From: Glandiceps talaboti
Taxonomy: Eukaryota; Hemichordata; Enteropneusta; Spengelidae
NCBI RefSeq assembly: GCF_964340395.1
Contig: NC_135549.1
Span: 22,811,342 to 22,875,341, forward strand
DNA length: 64,000 nucleotides
Reading direction: 5' to 3'
Below the pieces are notes generated by a model that saw nothing but the letters and a program-made list of their open reading frames with translations, was not told the origin of the DNA and searched no databases. Both the position numbers and the translations under genes were made by a program. Numbering within the stretch: the stretch's first letter is position 1; every line of letters starts with the position of its first letter. Of this stretch, positions 3,301-49,707 are shown one piece after another.

Positions 3301-6300
3301 TGAATTGGTAGAATCACCTTCTAAATCTCTTTAGTTGCGTTTAGACTCGCCATCATATGCAAAATGGCCCCTTCTGTCACTTGGGCTTTCACCTCAATAC
3401 ATTCATTGTACATAGTTAAAATAAATGTTTATGGACTGTGGGTTCATAGTTACAAATGAAAATTTCTACTCGCAGAGTGAAAAAAACAAACGACAATCTG
3501 ACAATGCTGACTAGATATCATCAAAAGTTTGGGATTCTCTTTCAAAAAATCACTGCTGCCAGTAAAATCAGAGAGGTTAATGCTGGTGTGTTTCACACAG
3601 TCTAATACCCAGGTTGGAATACTTTTACAAGTTGTTGTGGTATATGTCATTTATACAGTTTTGTTATCACCTTTGTCATTACTGCAGGCACCAACACAGA
3701 GACAAGCAAAGCGTAGACACACCAGTACAAAGAAATCCAAGTCAGCTGTATCACATTGTCAACTACACAACATACCAGTCAATGGTATCCTAACTAAAGT
3801 ACTCAGGATTGCTTCTATACATAACATGTATGGTCAGAGCACCGCCATGGTACAAGCTACATTACAGGTTTTATTGTCTCTTGCTAAGAACTCTGAGCAG
3901 TCAATGCTAGACAGGTGAGAATCAGACTCGATCATTTGGACCCTGTATACTTTCACTGTACGGAGGAAGTACAGTGAGGCGTGTTAGTGCAGAGTTGCAT
4001 TTCCTACTAATACCATGGCTACCCTTGTGGTGATGGCTTGATGATATTCATGTAGTTCATCATCCCAACAAACTTATACATAGTCATTCAATATTGCACC
4101 AAAATGTCTCTAGCTTTAAGAAGATTATGAGAAAGTAAAACATCAAACTTTGACTTCAACTTTATCATTTCTTTGTTATTCATCTTTTGATAATAGATAG
4201 CTATGATTGAACACTGTTTACATTAGTGATGACATGATTCACTACCAATCATAATCTGTATTTGATCAGGTCACAGTGGTCAGAAAGTGATAGTCTAGAG
4301 ACTATACATTTGGGCTTGTTTAAAATGATCTCTCTCTCTCTCCACTGTATCATACTCTGTGTTCATTCGTTCCTAGGTTGCAGCCTCTTTTAACAGACGG
4401 TACCATTCAGAATTGCCTGTCTCCTGACAACCTCTACAGTACTGTGTCAACTGCCATAGACATCCTAAATTACATTGTGTGTAATAAAACAATAGTATTG
4501 TCTCTATGTAACCAGTCAGGTATGTATTTGTATCAATTGCCATAGACATCCTAAATTACATTGTGTGTAATAAAACAATAGTATTGTCTCTATGTAACCA
4601 GTCAGGTATGTATTGTGTCAACTGCCATAGACATCCTAAATTACATTGTGTGTAATAAAACAATAGTATTGTCTCTATGTAACCAGTCAGGTATGTATTG
4701 TATCAACTGCCATAGACATCCTAAATTACATTGTGTGTAATAAAACAATAGTATTGTCTCTATGTAACCAGTCAGGTATGTATTGTGTCAACTGCCATAG
4801 ACATCCTAAATTACATTGTGTGTAATAAAACAATAGTATTGTCTCTATGTAACCAGTCAGGTATGTATTGTGTCAACTGCCATAGACATCCTAAATTACA
4901 TTGTGTGTAATAAAACAATAGTATTGTCTCTATGTAACCAGTCAGGTATGTATTTGTATCAACTGCCATAGTCATTGATTTGGGGAAAGGAAGATCATAT
5001 CCACACTGTCTAAAATAGACGATATTTTGACAATTTAAAATATATTGTGTAGAAAGACTAGTTTGAAATTTATCAAACCCTTTTGATAAACTTGCTGAAC
5101 ATGCATTGACATTAAAGCTGCACTAGGTGCAACTTGAAATTTTTTTTGAAACCGTCTTGTTGATTATAATAATTTACTTGTCCTATTATATATACACCCT
5201 GCGTAATAATTAAATCAGCTTGGATAAACATATTTGTACAACAGTACATGTAGTATGGTGCAAAACATTCAATCAAATTGATTTTTGGGACTGCACCCAA
5301 AAATCAGTGCTCCCAGGAAATCATGATCTCAACTTATTTCTGTATTACTTATAGATGAAATAGACCCAATTAACATAGATAGTTTCTTTATTATTGGTAT
5401 TTGAACAATTTCAGTGAATATATTGTTGGTACAGCTTTTTTGTGTGGTTTGTTTGCTTGTTTGTATTTGACAGAATCATGTACATTATCAAGGCTATATC
5501 ATCTATGTGATAGCGGAGTGGATAATTTATCTGATAGTCAATGGACACAGTTACAGTTTAAAGTAAGTCATCTAGTAGAAAATACTTGTTGGATTCTAAT
5601 TGAGTAACTAGCTAACAGCAGTCTGGATGTATTTAGATATTGTTCCCCAATAGTTAACTTCGTTCAGCCCACAAGGAAAATATGAGTGACCTAAGGGGCC
5701 TTTGTCACTATGAGTCGCTAGACGAGTAGTGACAACCCTTAGGTCACAAGTTTTTTATGGCTGAAGAATGAAGAAAACTGTTGGAGAATAACGTCATTAT
5801 ACCAGTGCCAGTAATATCAAAGAAACATTGGGGGAAATAGCTGTAATTTTAAACATTTTGACTCATATTTTGAACATGGCAGAACCAGTGATGTAGACAC
5901 GCATTGCTGTGACACAGACGCACGTTGTTGTGACGTAGAACAACCAGAGTATAAATTCCATATATTTTGTTCAACTTTGCTTCAGCATGATGTTATGAGT
6001 ATTATCATAGCATCAAGCCAGCATGGATACACTTGTGAAGTGTTTTTGTTCCTCAAAGTTTGGTTTTCTTTCTTTAATTTTAGAGCTTCAGATTATATAG
6101 AGTAATGTATGTCAGGGATTCCATCTTTTTGTGAAAACTATGAAAGGGTCTGTGCTTTGGTTTTATTCTTGATATTGTTTACTTCTTGACCTAGATTCTC
6201 CAGTTTTTTGCTACGCTGTTTTCCTGCCACCATAGTACTGTAACTTTATTGGTTGAAAGTGACTGTGATTGTAGTGTTGAGGTAAGACATTATAGTATAA

Positions 6301-6788: not shown

Positions 6789-8374
6789 ATTCCTCCTCTC
6801 ATCAACACGACCTTTACTTACATTATGATTTATACCTATCTTCTTCCTCTAGGTAGTGAAAGCTCTGGTTTTAATGTTGTATAAAGAATACATAGTTTAT
6901 AGTCAGTTGAACCCAGAGAAACAAATAGATTCCCCAAGGTAAGTTGGCACCGTACGTGTCTGTATCTTTGCTGTGGGCCATTGCATGATGGAAGTCAGTA
7001 GAAATAATACATTTCATGGTCGTACAATGAATGTTAATTAATGAGAGATGTTTTACACTGAAGGGAATAAGCTTTCAGGAGTCATGAATATTCATTATGC
7101 AGTCATGAATATATTATTTCTGCTGACTCCCATGATGCATCAGCCCACAGCAAATATACCCTATAAAGGCACAAGATCAACTTGATGTTTTTCTGAAATG
7201 ACAAATAATTGTAGGTGATGTAAAATCATGAAATGACTCTCCAGAACCCACATAGTTTATGAAAATGTCTTTATTTCCTGGAGTGGTGTTCGCCTCGTTA
7301 AGCTTTCCAATGTATTAAATATCCAGCATTACTGAGCATCCTGTTATGCACAAAGTAGAGGACTCAATCAAATGAAGTAGTCAGATTCATTTAAAAGTAT
7401 GTCAGATGATATCCACCTACATGTACTGTGTAGCTATGTTGTCGACATGTTGCTATGACTACACTGAAATAAGATCACACTACACATATAGTACATTGAT
7501 TCAAGATGTAAAGATCAGTTGTTTGCCAAGACAGGGATGTTTTTATGCCCTCTTGTATTATCACAGCCATATGACAATCAATTTGATTGACTCTTCATAT
7601 CTCCTGATTGACAGTTTACAGTAAGAATGATGAACAGTTTGATTGGCTCATTGTTTCCTGATTGACAGTGTACAGTAATAATGCCCAACAATTTGATTGG
7701 CTCTTTGTTTCCTGATTGACAGTTTACAGTAAGAATGCCCAACAATTTGATTGTCTCTGTATTTTTTTTGATTGACAGTTTGAAGGTGCTGAGGCATGGT
7801 ATTTTATTACTGCACTACCTATGTGTGTATGATAGGTTATTTATATCACATCGTGTTGATGTAGAACACAGCTATGTTAAACTGATATCGGCCATGAGTG
7901 CACTTTACAAGGAACTCACAGACATCACTGACCATGAAGGTAATGTCATTGATTTCTGTGCCACTCGTTATTTTTACATATACTGTGTGTTTGCTAGTCC
8001 ACGTTACGTTACCGTCACTGAAATAACATTATAATGTCAGTGTTATCCAAAGACTACAGGTCAGCTATCATCATATAAACATGCAGTACATGTAGTAAAA
8101 GTATAACCTCCTGAATTTAAGTGTTTGCATCTTTGGATTGGGAAGTTACCCACCCTCCTCAACAAGCATATTATCACCTGATTCCCAGGTACAAATGTCC
8201 ATATTGGGGGAGTATTATGCAATTTGGTCGGATTTCACACAGTGCTGATGATGGTTTCTCTTGCATTCATTTACAGCTACTGTCATACAAGAGTTGTGGG
8301 ATTTTGACCAGCCTGATGAAATGTGGTCCCCAGATGGTGAAGAAGAAGATGATGCACCAATGGAAACAGAGTAA
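330..8374 (+). CDS. ATRIP: ATR-interacting protein (ATRIP), 3' eleven exons, 5' partial
   Basis: Exons: 330-636, 1179-1298, 1751-1931, 2689-3271, 3688-3914, 4377-4519, 5474-5562, 6195-6281, 6853-6938, 7779-7939, 8277-8374 (TAA 8372-8374). They total 2082 nt, and all phases join to 693 codons plus stop. The first visible exon opens in the coiled coil (VENLKTQLQFKEMEI), followed by a Ser/Pro/Thr linker with FPTRQSFLAN, which resembles the human ATRIP segment FPTKESFSAN. The C-terminal helical repeat region follows, ending in an acidic tail (EEEDDAPMETE). In the family, ATRIP binds RPA-coated single-stranded DNA through its N-terminus, dimerises by the coiled coil, and recruits ATR through its C-terminal part. 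It acts in the nucleus in the replication-stress checkpoint. The N-terminal RPA-binding exons lie left of the window; human ATRIP is about 790 aa. Recognition is by remembered similarity, not a search. Oddities: minisatellites lie on the donor of the sixth visible exon and the acceptor of the tenth. Confidence 0.9.
891..1143. repeat. Foldback (long inverted repeat) element in ATRIP intron
   Basis: The left arm, about 891-1012, is the reverse complement of the right arm, about 1023-1143, with a loop near 1013-1022. Matching landmarks are TGCATGAAATTATTTCTCTA at the left and the mirrored TAGAGAAATCATTTCATGCA at the right. No transposase ORF is present. It is best read as a hairpin-type non-autonomous element (MITE or foldback) inserted between the first two visible exons. 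Transcribed RNA could form a hairpin of about 115 bp. Confidence 0.85.
2212..2320. repeat. TG-rich microsatellite with TGTC/TGCG interruptions
   Basis: This is an interrupted (TG)n tract inside the ATRIP intron between exons ending at 1931 and starting at 2689. Apparent open frames here are repeat artefacts. A smaller (TG)n tract lies at 1686-1707. Confidence 0.85.
4440..4970. repeat. 85-86 bp minisatellite copying an ATRIP exon 3' end and its 5' splice site
   Basis: The landmark GCCATAG recurs at 4453, 4539, 4624, 4709, 4794, 4879 and, truncated, 4965, so the period is 85-86 bp. The first unit is genuine coding sequence: exon 4377-4519 ends CAGTCAG|GTATGT. Each later full unit repeats about 67 nt of exon plus about 18 nt of intron, with a near-identical donor at 4605, 4690, 4775, 4860 and 4945. 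The copies are nearly identical, which points to recent expansion. Reading past the true donor hits an in-frame TAG inside the first repeat. Confidence 0.93.
5113..5424. repeat. Dispersed repeat family D, copy 1
   Basis: It starts AAAGCTGCACTAGGTGCAA and contains AATTGATTTTTGGG followed by AAAAATCAG. It ends near GTCAGTGAATATA-type sequence. The same order of blocks is found at 43326-43629, with moderate overall identity. It lies in an ATRIP intron, directly before the exon at 5474. No ORF and no poly-A tail were seen. The class (SINE-like or MITE) is undecided. Confidence 0.65.
6316..6566. repeat. CATA/GCAT tetranucleotide microsatellite
   Basis: This is a long (CATA)n array with CTGT, CACA and GCAT interruptions, beginning about 35 bp after the ATRIP donor at 6281. 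Open frames of the YIHT or CMYV type here come from the repeat. A (CA)n tract follows at 6734-6787, in the same intron. Confidence 0.95.
6734..6787. repeat. (CA)n microsatellite
   Basis: A pure CA dinucleotide tract of about 27 units lies in the ATRIP intron, 65 bp upstream of the acceptor of the exon starting at 6853. Confidence 0.95.
6966..7156. repeat. MITE-like family C with inverted ends, copy 1
   Basis: The left end, tttgctgtgggccattgcat from 6966, is inverted at the right end, atgcatcagcccacagcaaa up to 7156. The arms are about 45 bp with some mismatches. The inside contains GTTTTACACTGAAGG and GGAGTCATGAATATTCAT. The same left half recurs at 62060-62180, and the inner segment seeds the large minisatellite at 27402-29017. 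It is inserted in an ATRIP intron and has no coding capacity. Confidence 0.75.
7575..7778. repeat. 54-bp repeats each carrying a 3' splice site, ending at an ATRIP exon
   Basis: GATTGACAG recurs at 7606, 7660, 7714 and 7770 (periods 54, 54, 56). The last is the true acceptor of the ATRIP exon starting at 7779. Each earlier copy has the same pyrimidine stretch, the same AG and then TTTACAGTAAG or a close variant, so every unit looks like an acceptor. The first three exon bases (TTT) are shared by most copies. The array therefore spans an intron-exon boundary. Confidence 0.85.
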
Positions 8375-15100: not shown

Positions 15101-18100
15101 ACTTTCTTGATCTTTTGTACCTATTCAATTATAAAGTAGCATTTTGTCAAAAGTGTCAGCAACGAAAAATGTCTGCCCCATGGATGAAATTTGATTAAAA
15201 ATCAAAGTAACTTCAAGCATCTCCCAATTTGAAACCTAAGATATTAATTTAAAGCTTATTGCTGGTCCTTTGGAAATCATTACTAAAGATTAAACATAAA
15301 TTTGTTTGTTTTTTCACCATTCTGTTTTCAATGAAAATAGTCAATCTACAATACGTACACTCACTATCTCAGTTTTTGGACAAGGTCATGTTATTCAACA
15401 ATAATTCTGGATATTTTTAGACTATAACAGTACAGTCTGCATAACATATTCATCTACTTAACTTAACATTGTCTTCATTTACTTCTTTTACACCTCATCA
15501 ACCTCTCATGGAAGTATTGTGACCGACAAGCATCTCATCTTGAGGTTGAAGTAATTTTTTAAAAATTGAAGGTGAAATAAAATAAAATTCCGACCTACCC
15601 TGTTTTCTGAAGTAATGTTATCGAAAACAAACATTTTTTTTTTATTTTGAGTATAAAGCAGACTAATGATGGACCTTTCAGACTACTGTGCCTACTGAGA
15701 GTTTATATACACTAACCTGTCTTCTGTAAGGAGTTATGATACCAATGTTTTCCTCTTTAATATTAATTGTTCCTCTCATTTCAAACAAGTCTTTGACGTA
15801 GTCCCACACTACTTCAGCTTCCTCCATGTTGAAGAACGACGGACTTTGACCTTCTCTGCGGTCTAGACCTTCCACTCCATGGAAAATTATTGGGAATCCC
15901 TGAAAGAAGTGAAGTTAATACAGGTTGGTTCAATCAAAATGATGGATTTGATCACCCTTTCTGTAACTTAGATACACCAATATATTAACATTTCATGTAT
16001 TACAATAATAGCTCAATATTTCTCTTAAAAAGTAAACTAATCATTACAAAATCAACATCAAAGTATTTCGTATGTCATATTCTGGTTACCCACTTTGTAG
16101 CCATTATATTCAAAAGAAAAACATCACAGGAGGACATCCAATATTGAAGAAAATAAGAGTTAAACTATTCATGCCTAGCGCATGGCAGTACAAGAAGAAA
16201 ATCAACAAAATAGCTGAAAGCTGTTTGAACCTAAAATTCAGACAATTAAGGATTGAAATAGAATTCCTTGATATTTGCCATGAAACAGGGGAAAAGGTTA
16301 TTTTGAAAGTACTAGTATACCACAATGTCAGAGAGAATCTGCCACACTTGTGATCAAAATATACTGTGGAACAGCACCCCTAGTGGCCAAAACTAAACAA
16401 TCTTTTGTCTTTCCAAAATATTATATTGGCACAAAAAATCTTGCATGCGAATAAAAAACTCAAGTTTTGACATTGCCTAAAATCATTATCACATTGTAAG
16501 TACTGTCTATCTAAAGCACAGCAAAAGCTGGTTGTCGTGACATAGAACAACCCAGGTATCTAATCCATATTTTCTGTTCAAACACAATAAATTGGCTTGA
16601 GTAATGGTATAATACCTGTGTAGGTAGCCTACTCCATTGACATAAACTATTCCACAATAGTTGATCACCAGCATGTACTTGTAATTCACTGTCATAGAAC
16701 AGTTCATTTGGTATCTTCAAGATTTCTGGATGAGATCGATAGTTTCTGACTAACTTTGTCAAGATATTGGCATTGTAGGGTCGTTTATACACCTTACTGT
16801 CCTCCATAAGACGTTCAAGAAGTGATTTTGCTGTAAAATGAGAAGAAGAAGCAAAATTCTTGATTTTAAATGTGAAGATTCGTTTTCTTGATTAAGACAA
16901 TGTGGTCACACGGATGAGGATTGGGTATTTATTTTGGATTTTTAATTTATAAAACAACTTTATACTTTAACTTTCCTACTTGAAAAATCAATGTGAAACA
17001 ACATAGACAAAGTCTGTGTTTGTAACTGAATACAGAGCAAAATGCTAAAAATGTGTACAAAGTGTGTTATTGTACGTACAATTACAAACATTTTACACAT
17101 TTATCAGTCTTTTGCACTACATTGAGTTACAAACACAGACTTGGTTTTAACTTTGGCACACAGTAAGATCATATTAATTTCATACCAAGTCCATATTTGA
17201 TGGCGAGTGGAGATCTCAATACAGGACCAAGTTGTTTAGGATCTCCAGCCAGTACCAGTTGACCACCCTTAGCATTGTTACGATCTAATAGTCCTGCTAC
17301 AGATATGACACTTTCTGGCTCCATGGAATATCCGGACTCATCTATGAACAAATGGGTGAAGTGGTCCTTTGGCACACCAGCTGAAACGAGTCTGCAATAA
17401 ACAAATACATTTAGAAAAGAGTTGAAATAAAGGCCTAGTTTACAGTAGGATGGAAATTAGAAGATCAGTTGAAATGAGACTGAAAACACATCAAGTATCA
17501 TTTTTACATAATGTATGTGTGTGTCTGCGTGTGTGTGAGTGCATGCATATATGCGTGCGTGAATGTGCGTGTGTATATTACACATACATAACCATGCAGA
17601 TTTGGTTTTACCAGACTATTTGGATCGGACCAGCATTTACTATCTTTTCATTGTTTCTGTGAAGAAATGAACAGATAACACTGTTTATAATAATTATACC
17701 TTCCAGCTGTGACCAGTGTAGCCACTATTATCCTTTTCTTCATAATGTCTTCTTTGGATGGGAATACAACATCTTCATCCTCATTGTAATTGCATACCTT
17801 GGATTCCTATAATAATGCAATCAGAATAGTAGTAACTAATATGTTGTGACATTCATCCAAGATTCACGATATCAATTAATCATGATAACATGTCCCTTAC
17901 TGGCCATCAAGATGACAAAAGCAAGAAGTATTGTTCTACAAGTTGACTATAAACTTTGAGCTTTAGTAGAGGTCAGTTTTAGCCAACCTGCAGACTTGAA
18001 CCATGATCGCTACAACACTTATTCCGCTATCCTAAATTACATTTTGATTTTGTGAATGTTTGGCTATCGTTCCCAAGTCTACTCTGATGACCATTCAGAG

Positions 18101-21100
18101 CTAGTCTGAAATGGCATTCCTTAGTGTAAACAAACTTTTTGCACATTTTTTTTAGCTTTTTGCAAAGTATTGAGTTACAAAACAAAGTCTTAGCATATAT
18201 ATGTTGTTTCATGTTGTAGGAATTAAGCCATGATAAAATTGTTTTGTAAATTAAAAATCTCCCCAAACCTCATCCATATGGCCACTTTAAGAAACCGACC
18301 ACCACTACAAATAGTTGTTGAAGAAAACTGTATATACCTTTAGAAAGTGATCTACTAATATATACTGTCTTGATAGTCCACATAGTCTTAAAATAGTAGA
18401 TTTGGCAACGGGTGTGGCCTTGAGTAATCTGTGTGCTATCAAATCTGCTGCACTGTTAGATGGTGCACAGGCTAAGATAAAACTGTTTGGTAAACAGTCG
18501 TATACCTGCAGGTAAGGATGGAAAACAAACACAGAACATTGATTTGTTGCTAAAAAATCTTGAACAAAACAGCTGAAACTTTTGAAACTATACATATATA
18601 TAATATATATATATAACTAGTTTTGATAATTCTGGGACTCTTTCTTGGTTGTAACTCTGAGTTTTATGCACGCATAGTGCGATCATCAGACAACTATATA
18701 TATTTTCCTTTGGCCACAAACCCAACTAATTTGAACAAACTCCAACCAGGAGTTTAAAGTTATTTTTTATTTACCTTTCATTGCCAATGATATTTCCTTA
18801 ACTTAAATTCCTTTTCCTCACTTGATATGTTAATTTTCTTTTCTTTTCGACCTCTGGCAAATAAATATGTGTGTGTACAATGTTTGTACAATCCACACTA
18901 ATTTGAAACAGTGTTGCATCCAACAAGTCAAATATTAGCATACCTGTTTGATAGATTCTACCATTGTGACAGTTTTTCCTGTGCCAGGGGGTCCAAAGAG
19001 TAAATATGGTGCTGGCCTAGAGGTGCCTGCCAAGATGTGCTTCACTGCTGCCACTTGTTCAGTATTACTTTGTAACTTACGGTCATACATGCTATCATGC
19101 AGAAATGAAAAACAAATATAATGAAAGCTTCATTTTCTTTCTCAAGTCAGTGATAGTTGAACTTTTGAAAAAATTACCATTCTCAGTCTCTTTTTTAGGG
19201 TGTTGAAAAGATCCTTATATGGTGAATAAACATCTTGCATGACATATAGATTATTTGTGTGCTGCAATGTGCTAGAAATTTACGTTGAAGAATACCCCCC
19301 CCCCTCCCTCCCCTCACAATTTGAGGATTTCACTTTGGTTTTAAAATGAAGAAAAGCTGTGAAAGTGGACCATTTCAAACAACATGTGCACAGAATTAGA
19401 AAACTGTACAGTTCCTTTTTTTGGTCTTTTTTTATCAATTACTTTAAAAATAACAACTTAAACATCACTTCTATTATCTTGTTTCAGACATTAAAACTAT
19501 TTCACCTCAAGAAATGTCCATGGACCTTAGTTTTCATATTTTATAACACAAAATAAAATGTGAACAGTTGTACTTACCGGATGTTGTCTGACAGTGGTTT
19601 GAGCGGTGACATCTGACATATTGAGGACCGTATGGGGAATAATACAGGTTCTAAATTGGGATTCTGACCTGCACCACTTTTGACAGACTGAAGAGCTCTA
19701 TGCTGTACTCGTAATGGCAAACGATTGAAGGTGAACTGTACATCAAACTTCATTCCATTGATGAATCTATCCATCAACCTAATAGCACAATACAAAATGG
19801 TGGAAAGTTACAGTAAAACTAACTCTTTCATACTTTGGAGAAAAATTATCATAATAACCAAAAAAATTCAAAAGTACATAAAATGTTCATTTTAAATGTT
19901 AAATCATAAAATTAAATTAAATCAAATTGAAGTTAGAAAATTGACGTGATAGGAGTCACACCCCCTGAATCCTAATCAGAGTGCTCTAGTCAGCTGTCAA
20001 ATCTATCAACTGGTAGATTCCATCTGTTGTCCAGATATGTACTTTTCTATTCCTCACCGATGATAGTCACAGTGAAATTATGTAGAAATTTACATAAAAT
20101 TTACATAACATTTACATAAAATATTCATTTTTCAATTTCCCAAATACATGTGTATTAAATAAATCCATTTTTTGTGTACCCACACTTTTCCACAATCCAA
20201 TCACTATAGCAATAGAAATATCACTTATTTAAGCAGTAACTATAATAAAAAACTATTTTAGCCATTGGGTCATCAACAAATGATGACTTTAACCCCAATA
20301 TATAGAATTAAAAAAAAATATTTTTAAAAATCACTCACTGCATGCTAAATCCTACCAGCACATGTTCCATTTCAATATTATGTACATATCCTTTATAAAT
20401 TTTCTTATCCAAACCAGCTGGACCCTTAGCAGTTCTAACTTGTGCAAATATTATATCTCCTTTCAGCACTGATGGCCTGTTCTCTGCTAAACCTGGTACC
20501 TTTGAAGACAAAAGGGGAAAATTCAATATATATATATATACGGGTAATTACTTTGAGAGTGGAGGATGCAGACTTTGTATTTAACTGAATGAAGCAACCA
20601 TGCAATTACAAGTACAACTGTAATTTTTGTTCAAAGTGAGATAAAATGTAACCATTTGTGTAATTCGAATAAAAACACTGTGTGAGATGTAATAAAAAAA
20701 ACGACATTCACCTAATAAAAAATCTATAGGACTCACTCTGATTTGGTAGTAAAAGACCTCCCGCTTGCCTAATTGAAACTCTGTAGTCACTCTGATTTGG
20801 TAGTAAAAGACATCCTGTTTGCCTAATTGAAACTGTATAGTCACTCTGATTTGGTAGTAAAAGACATCCCGCTTCCCTAACTGAAACTCTATAGTCACTC
20901 TGATTTGGTAGTAAAAGACCTTCTGCTTGCCTAATTAAACTCTATAGTCACTCTGATTTGGTAGTAAAAGACCTCCTGCTTGCCTAATTGAAACTCTGTA
21001 GTCACTCTGATTTGGTAGTAAAAGACCTCCTGCTTGCCTAATTGAAACTCTATAGGGCTCACTCTGATTTGGTAGTACTAGTAAAGACATTCTGCTTGCC

Positions 21101-27401: not shown

Positions 27402-29017
27402 TTCATGACTCCTAAGTGCTTATTACCTTCATGACTCCCAAGTGCTTATTATCTTCATGACTCCTAAGTGCTTATTACCTTCATGACTCCCAAGTGCTTA
27501 TTACCTTCATGACTCCTAAGTGCTTATTACCTTCATGACTCCCAAGTGCTTATTACCTTCATGACTCCTAAGTGCTTATTACCTTCATGACTCCTAAGTG
27601 CTTATTACCTTCATGACTCCTAAGTGCTTATTACCTTCATGACTCCCAAGTGCTTATTACCTTCATGACTCCCAAGTGCTTATTACCTTCATGACTCCCA
27701 AGTGCTTATTACCTTCATGACTCCCAAGTGTTTATTACCTTCATGACTCCTAAGTGCTTATTACCTTCATGACTCCCAAGTGCTTATTACCTTCATGACT
27801 CCCAAGTGTTTATTACCTTCATGACTCCTAAGTGCTTATTACCTTCATGACTCCCAAGTGCTTATTACCTTCATGACTCCCAAGTGCTTATTACCTTCAT
27901 GACTCCTAAGTGCTTATTACCTTCATGACTCCTAAGTGCTTATTACCTTCATGACTCCCAAGTGTTTATTACCTTCATGACTCCTAAGTGCTTATTACCT
28001 TCATGACTCCCAAGTGCTTATTACCTTCATGACTCCCAAGTGCTTATTACCTTCATGACTCCCAAGTGCTTATTACCTTCATGACTCCCAAGTGCTTATT
28101 ACCTTCATGACTCCCAAGTGTTTATTACCTTCATGACTCCTAAGTGCTTATTACCTTCATGACTCCCAAGTGCTTATTACCTTCATGACTCCCAAGTGCT
28201 TATTACCTTCATGACTCCCAAGTGTTTATTATCTTCATGACTCCTAAGTGCTTATTACCTTCATGACTCCTAAGTGCTTATTACCTTCATGACTCCCAAG
28301 TGCTTATTACCTTCATGACTCCTAAGTGCTTATTATCTTCATGACTCCTAAGTGTTTATTACCTTCATGACTCCTAAGTGCTTATTACCTTCATGACTCC
28401 TAAGTGCTTATTATCTTCATGACTCCTAAGTGTTTATTACCTTCATGACTCCTAAGTGCTTATTACCTTCATGACTCCTAAGTGCTTATTATCTTCATGA
28501 CTCCTAAGTGTTTATTACCTTCATGACTCCCAAGTGCTTATTACCTTCATGACTCCCAAGTGCTTATTACCTTCATGACTCCCAAGTGTTTATTACCTTC
28601 ATGACTCCCAAGTGTTTATTACCTTCATGACTCCCAAGTGCTTATTATCTTCATGACTCCTAAGTGCTTATTATCTTCATGACTCCTAAGTGCTTATTAC
28701 CTTCATGACTCCCAAGTGCTTATTACCTTCATGACTCCCAAGTGCTTATTACCTTCATGACTCCTAAGTGTTTATTACCTTCATGACTCCCAAGTGTTTA
28801 TTACCTTCATGACTCCCAAGTGCTTATTACCTTCATGACTCCTAAGTGCTTATTACCCTCATGACTCCTAAGTGCTTATTACCTTCATGACTCCCAAGTG
28901 CTTATTACCTTCATGACTCCTAAGTGCTTATTACCTTCATGACTCCTAAGTGCTTATTACCTTCATGACTCCTAAGTGCTTATTACCTTCATGGCTCCTC
29001 AGTGCTTATTACCTTCA
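27402..29017. repeat. 26-bp minisatellite, about 62 units, grown inside a family C element
   Basis: CATGACTCC recurs every 26 bp from 27404 to the degenerate last copy at 28990, exactly 61 periods. The unit is TTCATGACTCCCAAGTGCTT plus ATTACC, with C/T and C/T variants. The flanks, aatgaatattcatgactcct at the left and ctgctgactcccat at 29041, match the inside and right end of the family C element at 6966-7156. The array is therefore an expansion of an internal piece of a MITE-like element. Confidence 0.93.
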
Positions 29018-43900: not shown

Positions 43901-46900
43901 AGTGCCATTTTCCATAAAATCTGATGAAATCAAATTTGAAGTCATTCGTACTCGAGATGAAATTTTTCACACCTAATAACAAACTCATGATGAATATTGT
44001 TATCATAAAAGTTATTCCCATCAAAAAATCGTCTTACCTTCCTTGGTAGTAAACTCCACTGACAGAAACAATTTCGTAAGATTTCGTCAGCATGCACTTG
44101 TAACTCATTCTCGTAGAACATTTGATTCGGCAGCCTCAAGATTTCTGGATGAGATCGATAGTTTCTGACTAACTTTGTCAATATATTCACATTATAGGGT
44201 TTGTTTGGTTCTCGCTGATAAACACTACAGTCATCCATGAAACGTTCAAGAATTGACTTTTCTGTAAAACAAGGATGTGGTGTTATCTGTTTGTTTTCAA
44301 ACTGTGAGTTTAGGAGGTTTACAAAAAATGCGTTTTGGGAGATTTTTAACCATAATCTAGTTTTCACAATGTTCAAACTTTGACATAAAATGCTTGCCAT
44401 GCAGTTTCCACTAAGCAAGACAATGCTGTTTTGAAAATCTTAATCAAACAACTTTGGAACAACACCATTTTTGTATCAAACCAAAATTTTCCTAAGTTTA
44501 TGTAAATTCTTTCATATTGATAATGGCATTGAGAAAACAAACTTTAAAATTTGCTGGGTTTTTTTTTAAAAAAAATAGTCAATTCTGAAAGTAAACTCTT
44601 AGAAAATATATAGAAATGTAGGTGACACATTTGATATCTTTGGACAAACATGATTTTGAAACTGTTCAAACTAGTTCAAACTGGTTCAACCTGCTTTAAA
44701 GTTGTTCAGACCGGTTCATACTGGTTTAAACTGGTTCAGACAGATGACAAAATAATATATGGTATCATTTACCAAGTCCATATTTGATGGCAAGTGGAGA
44801 TCTCAAGACAGGACCAAGTTGTTTAGGATCTCCAGCCAGTACCAGTTGACCACCCTTAGCATTGTTAGGATCCAATAGTCCTGCTACCGATATGACACTC
44901 TCTGGTTCTACGGCATATCCAGCCTCATCTATGAATAAGTGGGTGAAATGGTCGCGTGGTAGATCAGCTGAAACAAGTCTGAAAGACACACATATAAAGA
45001 TTAATATCTAAAATAAAAAACTCAAGAAAGGATGGAGCAGCATGGATATTTGTTGTTTCCATACTTTTATTTTAGGTCCAAATGGACACGCTCCAGTGGA
45101 GGCTAGCAGAATGACCCGTGTCCACCTGTCTGTCCATCTGTAGACAGCCAAATCCTTTATGTCCCAATCATGATTTTGTAGACCCAAGGCATTTTTGATT
45201 AAATAGCGCCCTCAAGAGTTACATTTGCGCCTATGGATCTGACGGTAATCTGGTGAACATGAGCAGGGTGGGTGATGTCTAAATCCAAAATACAAATCCC
45301 AATACTAGGGTTGTGATATTTACATTACATGCTGAGTGAAAGAAAGGCATGATTGTACATATGTATATTGAGGCATGTATTAAAGTTTTCATTCCCTCCA
45401 AATGCTTCCACATGGTCGTGAATTGTAAACAGTTCTTACCTTCCACCTGTAACCAGTTTAGCTACTATAATTCTATCATTTCTTACCTTCCACCTGTAAC
45501 CAGTTTAACCACTATAATTCTATCAGTTCTTACCTTCCAGCTGTAACCAGTTTAACCACTATAATTCTATCATTTCTTACCTTCCAGCTGTAACCAGTTT
45601 AGTTACTATAATTCTATCATTTCTTACCTTCCAGCTGTAACCAGTGTAGCTACTATAATTCTATCATTTCTTACCTTCCAGCTGTAACCAGTGTAGCTAC
45701 TATAATTCTATCATTTCTTACCTTCCAGCTGTAACCAGTGTAGCTACTATAATTCTATCATTTCTTACCTTCCAGCTGTAACCAGTTTAGCTACTATAAT
45801 TCTATCATTTCTTACCTTCCAGCTGTAACCAGTTTAACCACTATAATTCTATCATTTCTTACCTTCCAGCTGTAACCAGTTTAGCTACTATAATTCTATC
45901 AGTTCTTACCTTCCAGCTGTAACCAGTTTAGCTACTATAATTCTATCATTTCTTACCTTCCAGCTGTAACCAGTTTAACCACTATAATTCTATCATTTCT
46001 TACCTTCCAGCTGTAACCAGTTTAGCTACTATAATTCTATCATTTCTTACCTTCCAGCTGTAACCAGTTTAGCTACTATAATTCTATCAGTTCTTACCTT
46101 CCAGCTGTAACCAGTTTAACCACTATAATTCTATCAGTTCTTACCTTCCAGCTGTAACCAGTTTAACCACTATAATTCTATCATTTCTTACCTTCCAGCT
46201 GTAACCAGTTTAGTTACTATAATTCTATCATTTCTTACCTTCCAGCTGTAACCAGTGTAGCTACTATAATTCTATCATTTCTTACCTTCCAGCTGTAACC
46301 AGTGTAGCTACTATAATTCTATCAGTTCTTACCTTCCAGCTGTAACCAGTTTAGCTACTATAATTCTATCATTTCTTACCTTCCAGGAGTAACCAGTGTA
46401 GCTACTATAATTCTATCAGTTCTTACCTTCCAGCTGTAACCAGTTTAGCTACTATAATTCTATCATTTCTTACCTTCCAGCTGTAACCAGTGTAGCTACT
46501 ATAATTCAATCAGTTCTTACCTTCCAGCTGTAACCAGTTTAGCTACTATAATTCTATCAGTTCTTACCTTCCAGCTGTAACCAGTGTAGCTACTACAATC
46601 CTTGTTTTCATAATTTCTTCTTTTGATGGTAATACAACCTCCTTGTCATCATTGTAATTGCATACTTTTTTCTCCTACAAAGCAAGACCACAAGAGTGTT
46701 TGGATATTGTGCAGTAACCATGACATCAAGACAATGGGTATACTTTACATGTCATATGGAACAAGCGAATGGATTTTTTCAGTGATATAAAATACAAATA
46801 GCTCTAGCTATGGTCTTTGAGTGAATTGATAATATAGAATCAGCAGTCACGATTTATTAGTTACGCCCACTTTTGATTACACCTGAAAAAGACATTTTTT

Positions 46901-49707
46901 GGTTCCTGTTACCCAACCCCACTATTTTTTCACTGTCGAACCTACAAACAATTTTTTTTACGTATTCGAGAAAAAAAATAATAAAACACAAAAATTGTGA
47001 TATCTCGCAAGAAACAGTGGATGCAGAAACTGACATCAACTTAAAAAGACAATATTAAACTGTTTTTCCAATCTGTAATGGCTGTACATCTGTCTTTATA
47101 AGTTGATGTCAGTTTCCACATCCACTATTTCTTGCGAGACTTCACAGAGACCATATGGAAAACAACAGAATACATAACTACCTGAATAAGACACACATAT
47201 GAAGAAAAAAAAAATATTTTTTTTTAAAAATCTACCTTAACCCACCTATTCTAAAATTGAGCATATTCGAAACAACACATTTTTTTTGTTAGGCGTTTAA
47301 CGATTAAGATTTAGGTGTGAAAAACAGATTTCTGGCAGAGCGACAGAAAAAGTTGATTCAGAACAAAAGAATGACCCCATGTAATGTATGTGGCTTCACT
47401 GATAAGATTAACGCTCAGATGAAAAAAAATTTGGGATTGAAACCATGGCAAAAGTGTCATAGAACTAAGATACAAACTTACCTTTAGATACGCGTCTACT
47501 GACGTATAGCTTCTAGACATTGCACATAGTCTTAAAATGGTAGAGTTGGCAATGGGTGAGTTCTTAAGTAGTCTGTGTGCTATCAAATCTGCTGCACTGT
47601 TAGATGGGGCACAGGCTAAGATAAAACTGCCAGGTAAATGCTTGTATACCTAGTAGAATTATGAATTAAAAGTTAAAAGAAAGAGATTGTTTGAAATTAT
47701 TAATATTTAAATAAGGTAGTGGGTCAGGTCAGATTGGGTCAGGTCAGGTCAGGTCAGGTTGGGTCATAATCTGCAAATTTCCAAGATGAAAATCCAAGAT
47801 GGCCACCAAATCATGTTAAACCATTGTCCACAAACTTGAAAGTACTCAACCATACACAAAATAATTCCTTCACAAAGTATAACCAACATTTGCAATGACT
47901 GAAAGGCTTAAGACATATTACAGTAATTGGTCAAATTGTGTCTCCAAAGAAGACTTTCATAGTTTGAATGTTAACGCTTAGCTCAGCTGACTCTGCTATA
48001 CTTATAGGGGGAATTATTTGTCACAAACCACCCAGTGTCAGAAGTTTCACATTGATCAGTGTTGAAGAATTGGATGACAAAAAAAAACACCAGCAAATAA
48101 AAGACATTGACATTATGGTGCCCAATCCCTTCTAGTTTGGACGTCTGTGTAAAAAAAATTGACAAAGTGACCTAATTTGCATAAGACACATACTGTATGA
48201 AGTATTCAGTAGACACTCACACTTAGTCCTGTGCATTACAGAGTCCTACACAGGATTACAGATTCTCAGTACCAGGTGAACCCTTATTAAACGGTTATTA
48301 CCAAATTCAAATATAAGCATACCTGTTTGATAGATTCTACCATTGTGACAGTTTTTCCTGTGCCAGGGGGTCCAAAGAGTAAATATGGTGCTGGCCTAGA
48401 GGTGCCTGCCAAGATGTGCTTCACTGCTGCCACTTGTTCAGTGTTACTTTGTAACTTACGGTCATGTATGCTGTTGAGTTAAGATTTGTAGAAAAAAACA
48501 TAAGAATGGGGGTTCATACTTATTTCTACTCACAGAATTCTTGGAAGCAAATCCCAAATCAACATCTCATCAGCATTGTCAGGGGTATACTCCGAGAAAT
48601 GTGACAATAACCCATTGTACTACACCCCTGGCAATGCTGACGAGACATTGGTGAAAATTTGAGATTTGCTTCCAGGAATTTTTTTGACTTTGTGAGCAGA
48701 AATTTTCATTACTAAACATAAGAATGGTTTGTACTGATTAACAAAATGATGTAGTAGTCATTTTAATATTCATTTCCTGACGACATGGATTGATGAAATA
48801 TGTCAAGCGTATTTTACTTCATTGAATGAATGACGGAAAATATCACTAGATGGTATTATCTAATCTAAACTGTACATTTTCTATGCATGGCATCAAATTA
48901 CTACTACTACTACTACTACTACGGAAAGTCAACTATTGATAAACTAAAATAAACACAAACTAAAACTATCATTGTTGCATGTGTGGATAATAGCAGTGTC
49001 TTGGTTATGTGGATAGAATCACTCTGTGATCATGTAAACACTGAATGAGGTTGAATGTGCAGACACTTGTGACTTGAACACTTACTATCAAATAAGCAAC
49101 CCTCATGTGAGCATAATTACATCAATGTGCATTTATAGCTTGTATCAACAACATGCAACAATAGTTTTGCTTCTGTTTATCTTAGTTGCTGGTTTGATTT
49201 CTATAGTAGTATCATTTTTATTGTTTCTGTCTATCGTAGTTGCCGATAGTTTGATTTCCATAGTAGTATCATTTTTATAGTTTCTGTCTATCTTACTTGC
49301 CGATAGTTTGATTTCCATAGTACTAAACTGTTGTTTCAACTCACATAATATCAGCTGAGAGTTGTCTGAGCAATGGTTTTGTGCAGATTGTATGTTGTTG
49401 GGGGAACAAGACATTCTGAAAATCAAGTTCCTCCTCTGCAACATCTTCCACGGCTCTGTGTTGTAATCGTAATGGTAACCGATTGAAGGTGAATTGAACA
49501 TCAAATTTCATACCCTTTATGAATGTATCCAACAATCTGTATTGCACAAGAAATGGAAAAAATGTTCTGGGATTAAAGTGTATATTTGTCATGATACCAC
49601 TTCCAAGAATTTGTAAGTATGAACAATGGATTTAAGAATTGTCTAAATCGCTTTAAAATTATAACAGACACAGACACAGACACAGACACACAGACAGACA
49701 GACAGAT

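Follow-up and report, generated by a model that had tools for sequence, protein, structure and literature searches.

The stretch of DNA analysed here, referred to as the window, is 64 kb of an acorn worm genome and contains two close copies of a helicase gene, copy A at about 26.5-13 kb and copy B at about 54.3-39.2 kb. It is in copy B that the feature under study is found, a tandem array at the start of one intron in which the end of the preceding exon is repeated together with its 5' splice site (Table 1). The peptide encoded around this array, assembled from joined exon translations, is that of a superfamily 1 helicase, with matches to the Pfam families AAA_11 and AAA_12 and with UPF1 as its best solved relatives. 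The names MOV10 and MOV10L1 used for these genes are our assumption, based on the motifs of the family; the 24 solved sequences that were matched include no MOV10 entry. In the UPF1 alignment the array-bearing exon sits upstream of the IDE region, which we take to be helicase motif II. A search of the genome with this exon and the one that follows it gave, among the best-scored candidates, copies A and B together with three more distant matches. Between both helicase genes lies a 26-bp minisatellite of 62 copies (27402-29017).

Table 1. Positions in the window of the junction arrays and of the exons and intron that accompany them (a slash marks the splice junction)
Feature	Position	Strand	Description
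Array-bearing exon, copy B	46568..46674 (107 nt)	minus	true 5' splice site at 46567; last 35 nt are part of unit 0
Array unit 0	46556..46602	minus	genuine exon end plus GTAAGAACTGAT; 4/47 positions differ from the decoy majority
24 decoy units	45428..46555	minus	47 bp period, 35-nt exon copy plus GTAAGAA; last unit grades into unique intron
Array-containing intron	44979..46567 (1589 nt)	minus	decoy units occupy about 71%
Next exon, copy B	44773..44978	minus	acceptor at 44978
Same exon in copy A	17700..17806	minus	donor AAG/GTATAA, without array
Second junction array (donor type, another gene)	4439..4975	plus	exon 3' end plus CAG/GTATGTA, 6 donors
Third junction array (acceptor type)	7571..7781	plus	3' splice site TGATTGACAG/ four times, 54, 54 and 56 bp apart

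Anatomy of the array and its host gene

Tandem Repeats Finder describes the array in copy B as extending over 45433-46599 with a period of 47, 24.8 copies, 95% matches and 0% indels, and a script scan of the minus strand finds 25 donors of the form GGAAG/GTAAGAA, separated by 24 spacings that are each exactly 47 bp. The unit combines 35 nt from the 3' end of the exon with the 12 nt of intron that follow, in the register of the real junction. In the transcript the genuine exon end comes first, and 24 further donors lie downstream of it, inside the intron. The first-pass annotation had described 25 donors at 24 exact periods and a unit made of a 35-nt exon end and a GTAAGAA donor, and in these respects it is borne out. 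Of the extent that it gave, 45435..46610, the upper end is misplaced and really falls at about 46599-46602, and its exon number 11 is uncertain (tenth or eleventh in the gene model). Twenty-five in-register copies cannot be chance.

The donor itself, from position -4 to +7, is identical in 25/25 units. Among the 24 decoy units 10 of the 47 columns are variable and none of these falls within the donor, but because only ten variable columns could miss it by luck, the identity of the donors says little about selection. The 25 units fall into 11 types, with the block e-e-f-g present twice, and the mean pairwise difference is 5.0% among the 24 decoys and 9.0% between unit 0 and the decoys, a comparison that covers the boundary unit on the exon side only. 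When the first donor is used, the array-bearing exon and the exon from 44978 join in frame (GGA AG/A CTT) to give ..LVTAGRLVSAD.., whereas translation that continues beyond the first donor reads GGA AGG TAA, a stop that is the same for every decoy used, exactly as had been claimed.

Copy A, the closest paralogue, which lies 29 kb away, has the homologous exon and junction but no array. Between copies B and A the dN/dS ratio is 0.166 over 6 segments downstream of the array and 0.275 over 8 upstream, these being pairwise values in which constraint is not assignable to copy B alone, in which stop-containing frames were skipped during the choice of frame, and from which segments 26472-26190 (no open frame in the forced frame) and 24944-24894 were left out. 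In the six compared segments downstream of the array the frame is open in both copies. Because the downstream segments are open and constrained, they suggest that a protein with motifs II-VI is made from the gene. The exon with the Walker A motif is a case apart, in that copies A and B (18928-19093 and 48307-48472) are 97.6% identical over 166 bp where the other listed pairs are about 74-93% identical; to judge from this identity, it looks like the product of gene conversion.

Junction repeats elsewhere in the genome

The first-pass annotation implied that the array was unique, and this is wrong, since similar arrays are common in the same genome, both in the window and at myosin exons. The donor-type array at 4439-4975 has spacings of 86, 85, 85, 85 and 85, belongs to an exon at about 4377-4519 and, once more, has the real junction as its first unit, while at 7571-7781 the last acceptor copy precedes an exon that starts at 7779. 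Both lie in a plus-strand gene, for which neither peptide gave a Pfam match. At locus L035, the site of a MOV10L1-like and more distant paralogue, a donor array that by eye looks decayed and older comes after the exon whose peptide ends in ..SNSASDLL, and at L032 there is a donor array that is exon-like. The myosin exons carry donor arrays at L061, where by eye the decoy donors have decayed, and at L065, a two-copy duplication on the donor side at L047, and acceptor arrays at L044 and L056.

In a myosin sample made up of the best 30 of 78 matches by E-value, 5/59 predicted junctions (3/30 donors and 2/29 acceptors) are spanned by a local repeat, and the mean for flank positions is 12.8%; the junctions were predicted with a simple score based on splice-site frequencies, and a few with low scores (the donors of L038, L046 and L067 and the acceptor of L046) may be misplaced. 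In the window, 2/31 donors and 0/23 acceptors are spanned, against 11.5% of all positions, the junctions being picked by the same score, with no donor found for the B exon 49549-49453, several acceptors absent from the list and some positions slightly displaced (44994, for example, in place of the true 44978). The array at 7571-7781 escaped this count because only about 3 exon bases are shared, fewer than the 8-base rule demands. The first repeat scan covered 35 loci (30 myosin and 5 MOV10-type), with low-complexity matches and those of <22 nt dropped, and in none of the five MOV10-type matched segments was a repeat found, the array at L035 belonging to a different exon of the same locus. Candidates at L042, L058, L060 and L063 were inspected and are uncounted as junction arrays, and the match at L059 lies outside the inspected set. 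Several per cent of the sampled junctions in this genome thus carry such repeats. As junctions are spanned no oftener than neighbouring sequence, no special junction process is needed.

Two of the myosin loci deserve a word of their own. At L047 (about 1650-1900, minus sense) a second copy of the exon end and donor stands about 140 nt from the first. This second copy may serve as an exon, since a by-eye comparison of 45 nt of coding sequence shows 4/5 differences to be synonymous. At L065 (plus sense, 1660-1900) the boundary of the repeated stretch in the donor array falls at TAAGA, a word common to the exon interior and the donor, and this hints that a short shared word could have seeded the duplication. 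A 13-nt homology at the breakpoint was considered and rejected, the stretch shared before the repeat being TAAGA only.

Over the whole genome the donor word AGGTAAG occurs in threes at spacings of 20-50 on 7457 occasions against 2563 for the reversed 7-mer, and at spacings of 50-80, in part within the same arrays, on 6930 occasions against 2423, while single-word counts are 78022 and 84781, respectively. Two further control words in threes gave 5626 and 3146, although the first of these, GAGTAGA, turned out to be a microsatellite word, its listing dominated by GAGTA. In a set formed by the 64 kb window and 33 loci, AGGTAAG stands in threes in 24/78 cases, GAATGGA in 0/29 and 140 words of that composition in 192/3142 (154/1219 in the window and 38/1923 in the loci). 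In contrast to the junction frequencies, which call for no special process, these counts hint at an excess of donor motifs in arrays beyond what random seeding would give, with the proviso that they are counts of matches rather than of arrays and are not independent, because one array yields dozens.

Some other features of the genome were noted in passing. At G000:C1:5046389-5049378 there is an array of roughly 3 kb with a 27-bp unit, most listed copies of which contain AGGTAAGT. Many kinesin-like exons (profile 245-320) with identical or near-identical scores form local clusters on contigs C2, C5, C9, C11, C12, C15, C18, C22 and C23 of G000, which from their scores look like the work of a recently spreading gene or element. 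The mitochondrial contig (G000:C40, 51222 bp) has COX1 three times at 15435 bp intervals, from which it follows that the mitochondrial circle was assembled as a repeat. Naming by eye of the mitochondrial genes apart from COX1 places cytochrome b between ATP6 and COX3. For two acorn worms an nd5-cob neighbourhood is reported instead (PMC2697986), and this difference in gene order speaks somewhat against a close relationship with these. The tRNA scan places tRNA-Lys, with anticodon CTT, between COX2 and ATP8, and a second Lys candidate (TTT), the lowest listed and inside ND5 on the other strand, was taken as false. None of the seven protein genes with a clean count contains AAA, AGA or AGG; two AAA and two AGG occur in the ND5 stretch, which may extend beyond the gene itself, and the GC content is 53%. 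In codon use and in the anticodon of tRNA-Lys the contig resembles Balanoglossus, which lacks AAA and AGG and has the anticodon CUU, and differs from lancelets, where the anticodon is UUU and AAA encodes Lys (PMC3121625). The mitochondrial evidence thus fits an acorn worm best and makes a lancelet unlikely.

Origin of the array and choice of donor

The explanation that we favour, with a probability of about 0.83, is that the array is an ordinary minisatellite, of the same kind as the 'mirages' of amphioxus, which took its start across a 5' splice junction and from there expanded into the intron, and that the first donor is the one used. A short tandem duplication over the exon end and its donor would have arisen first and would then have been amplified by slippage and unequal exchange, the same turnover that operates on other intronic minisatellites, of which the twofold e-e-f-g block may be a trace. 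Such an array would be tolerable on the intron side only. The choice of the first donor would follow from exon definition, in which pairing across the exon tends to favour, among equal donors, the one closest to the acceptor; the exon is 107 nt long with the first donor and would be 154 to 1235 nt with the decoys. Exon definition should apply here since the introns that flank the exon are long (807 and 1589 nt from their coordinates). Use of a decoy would lead to an immediate stop and to degradation of the mRNA, so that rare mistakes would be cheap.

Experimental data on equal donors bear on this choice. Each of five minigenes that carried two identical donors under exon-definition conditions spliced exclusively from the upstream one (PMC9225289), with two donors to choose from where the present array has 25. 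The human data from the same source are more mixed. Pairs of equal strength favoured the upstream donor in only 60% of events, a preference found in the long-intron classes, and without the strength filter it was the downstream donor that was taken in about 60% (PMC9225289). That RNA folding hides the decoys was considered and rejected, as the predicted accessibilities of the first donor and the decoys overlap, with mean unpaired probabilities of 0.67 for the first donor, 0.39-0.85 for the decoys and 0.47 for the transcript overall.

U1 snRNP is known to raise the rate of splicing and to block premature polyadenylation, and the array could conceivably act as a platform that binds many U1 particles and so speeds splicing of the exon or protects the intron from premature polyadenylation. 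The 25 donor sites within 1.2 kb, most of them predicted to be more open than the transcript average, would suit such a function, yet copy A does without an array, evidence of conservation is lacking and other arrays decay, all of which makes this the least probable of the explanations weighed here. Only slightly more credence attaches to false expansion of a single junction during assembly. The array is known from one assembly, and misassembly in a draft genome has been reported for one of the amphioxus mirages (PMC3087553); against this stand the 11 types among the 25 units, the repeated block and the 5% mean divergence of the decoys, which are not what identical stutter would give, and the other arrays of this genome, with different units and apparent ages.

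The first-pass annotation had posed a choice between reliable use of the first donor and a poison switch of copy-number-dependent strength. The former gains indirect support, from the open and constrained downstream segments, the long flanking introns, the minigenes and the amphioxus cases, and for a switch driven by copy number nothing was found in support. In a broader form, in which copy number or the levels of U1 or SR proteins set decoy use and the stop-containing mRNA in turn sets the dose of helicase, the idea has in its favour the 25 donors that are equal from -4 to +7, the AGG-TAA at every decoy, and human IFI6, where donor function is provided by two downstream repeat units (PMC4526556). 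It is nevertheless unlikely, given that unrelated exons carry similar arrays, that in the older-looking arrays L035 and L061 decoy donors have by eye decayed, that there is no sign of selection keeping the donors (though ten random variable columns could miss the donor too), and that minigene data favour the first donor (PMC9225289). A generalised version, in which U1 or SR levels or the length of the array act as a rheostat for decoy use through a mechanism common to many genes of this genome, is more doubtful still, if not quite as improbable as an assembly fault; were it true, the amount of MOV10-type helicase would vary with repeat length between individuals and even between cells.

Relation to known junction minisatellites

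The closest parallels to a probably inert intronic minisatellite of this sort are the amphioxus mirages of Adh3, the globins BflGb6 and BflGb9, troponin C and PGBD5, which are minisatellite-like tandem duplications that span exon-intron boundaries (PMC3087553, PMC3902484). According to these reports, mirages occur at both 5' and 3' boundaries, many of their units carry AG/GT signals, they are homogenised inside with the boundary units left out, their length differs between haplotypes, and by RT-PCR splicing is undisturbed (PMC3087553, PMC3902484). The array in copy B is similar in that its unit spans the exon-intron boundary (35 nt of exon and 12 nt of intron), in that the splice signals are kept in the repeat units (25/25 donors) and in that the pattern is one of concerted evolution from which the boundary unit is excluded; moreover, as in amphioxus, the genome has both donor arrays (4439-4975, L061, L065) and acceptor arrays (7571-7781, L044, L056). 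It differs in size, with 25 copies against the 6 and 3 given for the BflGb6 haplotypes, and in that the cases in those reports come from lancelets. The mirage kind therefore seems to reach beyond lancelets, because the host of this array is an acorn worm, and the phylum is probably new for it; among the matches listed from the open-licence literature, no hemichordate report of such arrays was found.

Two sets of human repeats provide further points of comparison. Turri in 1995 is said to have described minisatellite units that provide splice donors in human IFI6 (also 6-16 or G1P3). The IFI6 unit is 12 nt long, and use of a downstream unit keeps the reading frame. The likeness to the present array is that minisatellite units carry splice donors; the differences are that the downstream donors of IFI6 are used, giving rise to different isoforms (PMC4526556), and that the array here has a 47-nt unit with an in-frame stop, such that decoy use would abolish the protein. 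Human segmentally duplicated genes likewise have variable tandem repeats located at exon-intron boundaries, but in those genes variation of the repeats has been associated with novel introns and with alternative splicing (PMC2812944).

Junction minisatellites have been proposed to seed new introns (PMC3087553), and the array in copy B, which suggests that such minisatellites are not specific to lancelets, bears on that proposal. It also offers a natural test bench for how the spliceosome chooses among dozens of identical donors, and the genome, with repeats of this sort at several per cent of the junctions sampled, provides natural replicates of it, at donors and at acceptors, young as well as decayed.
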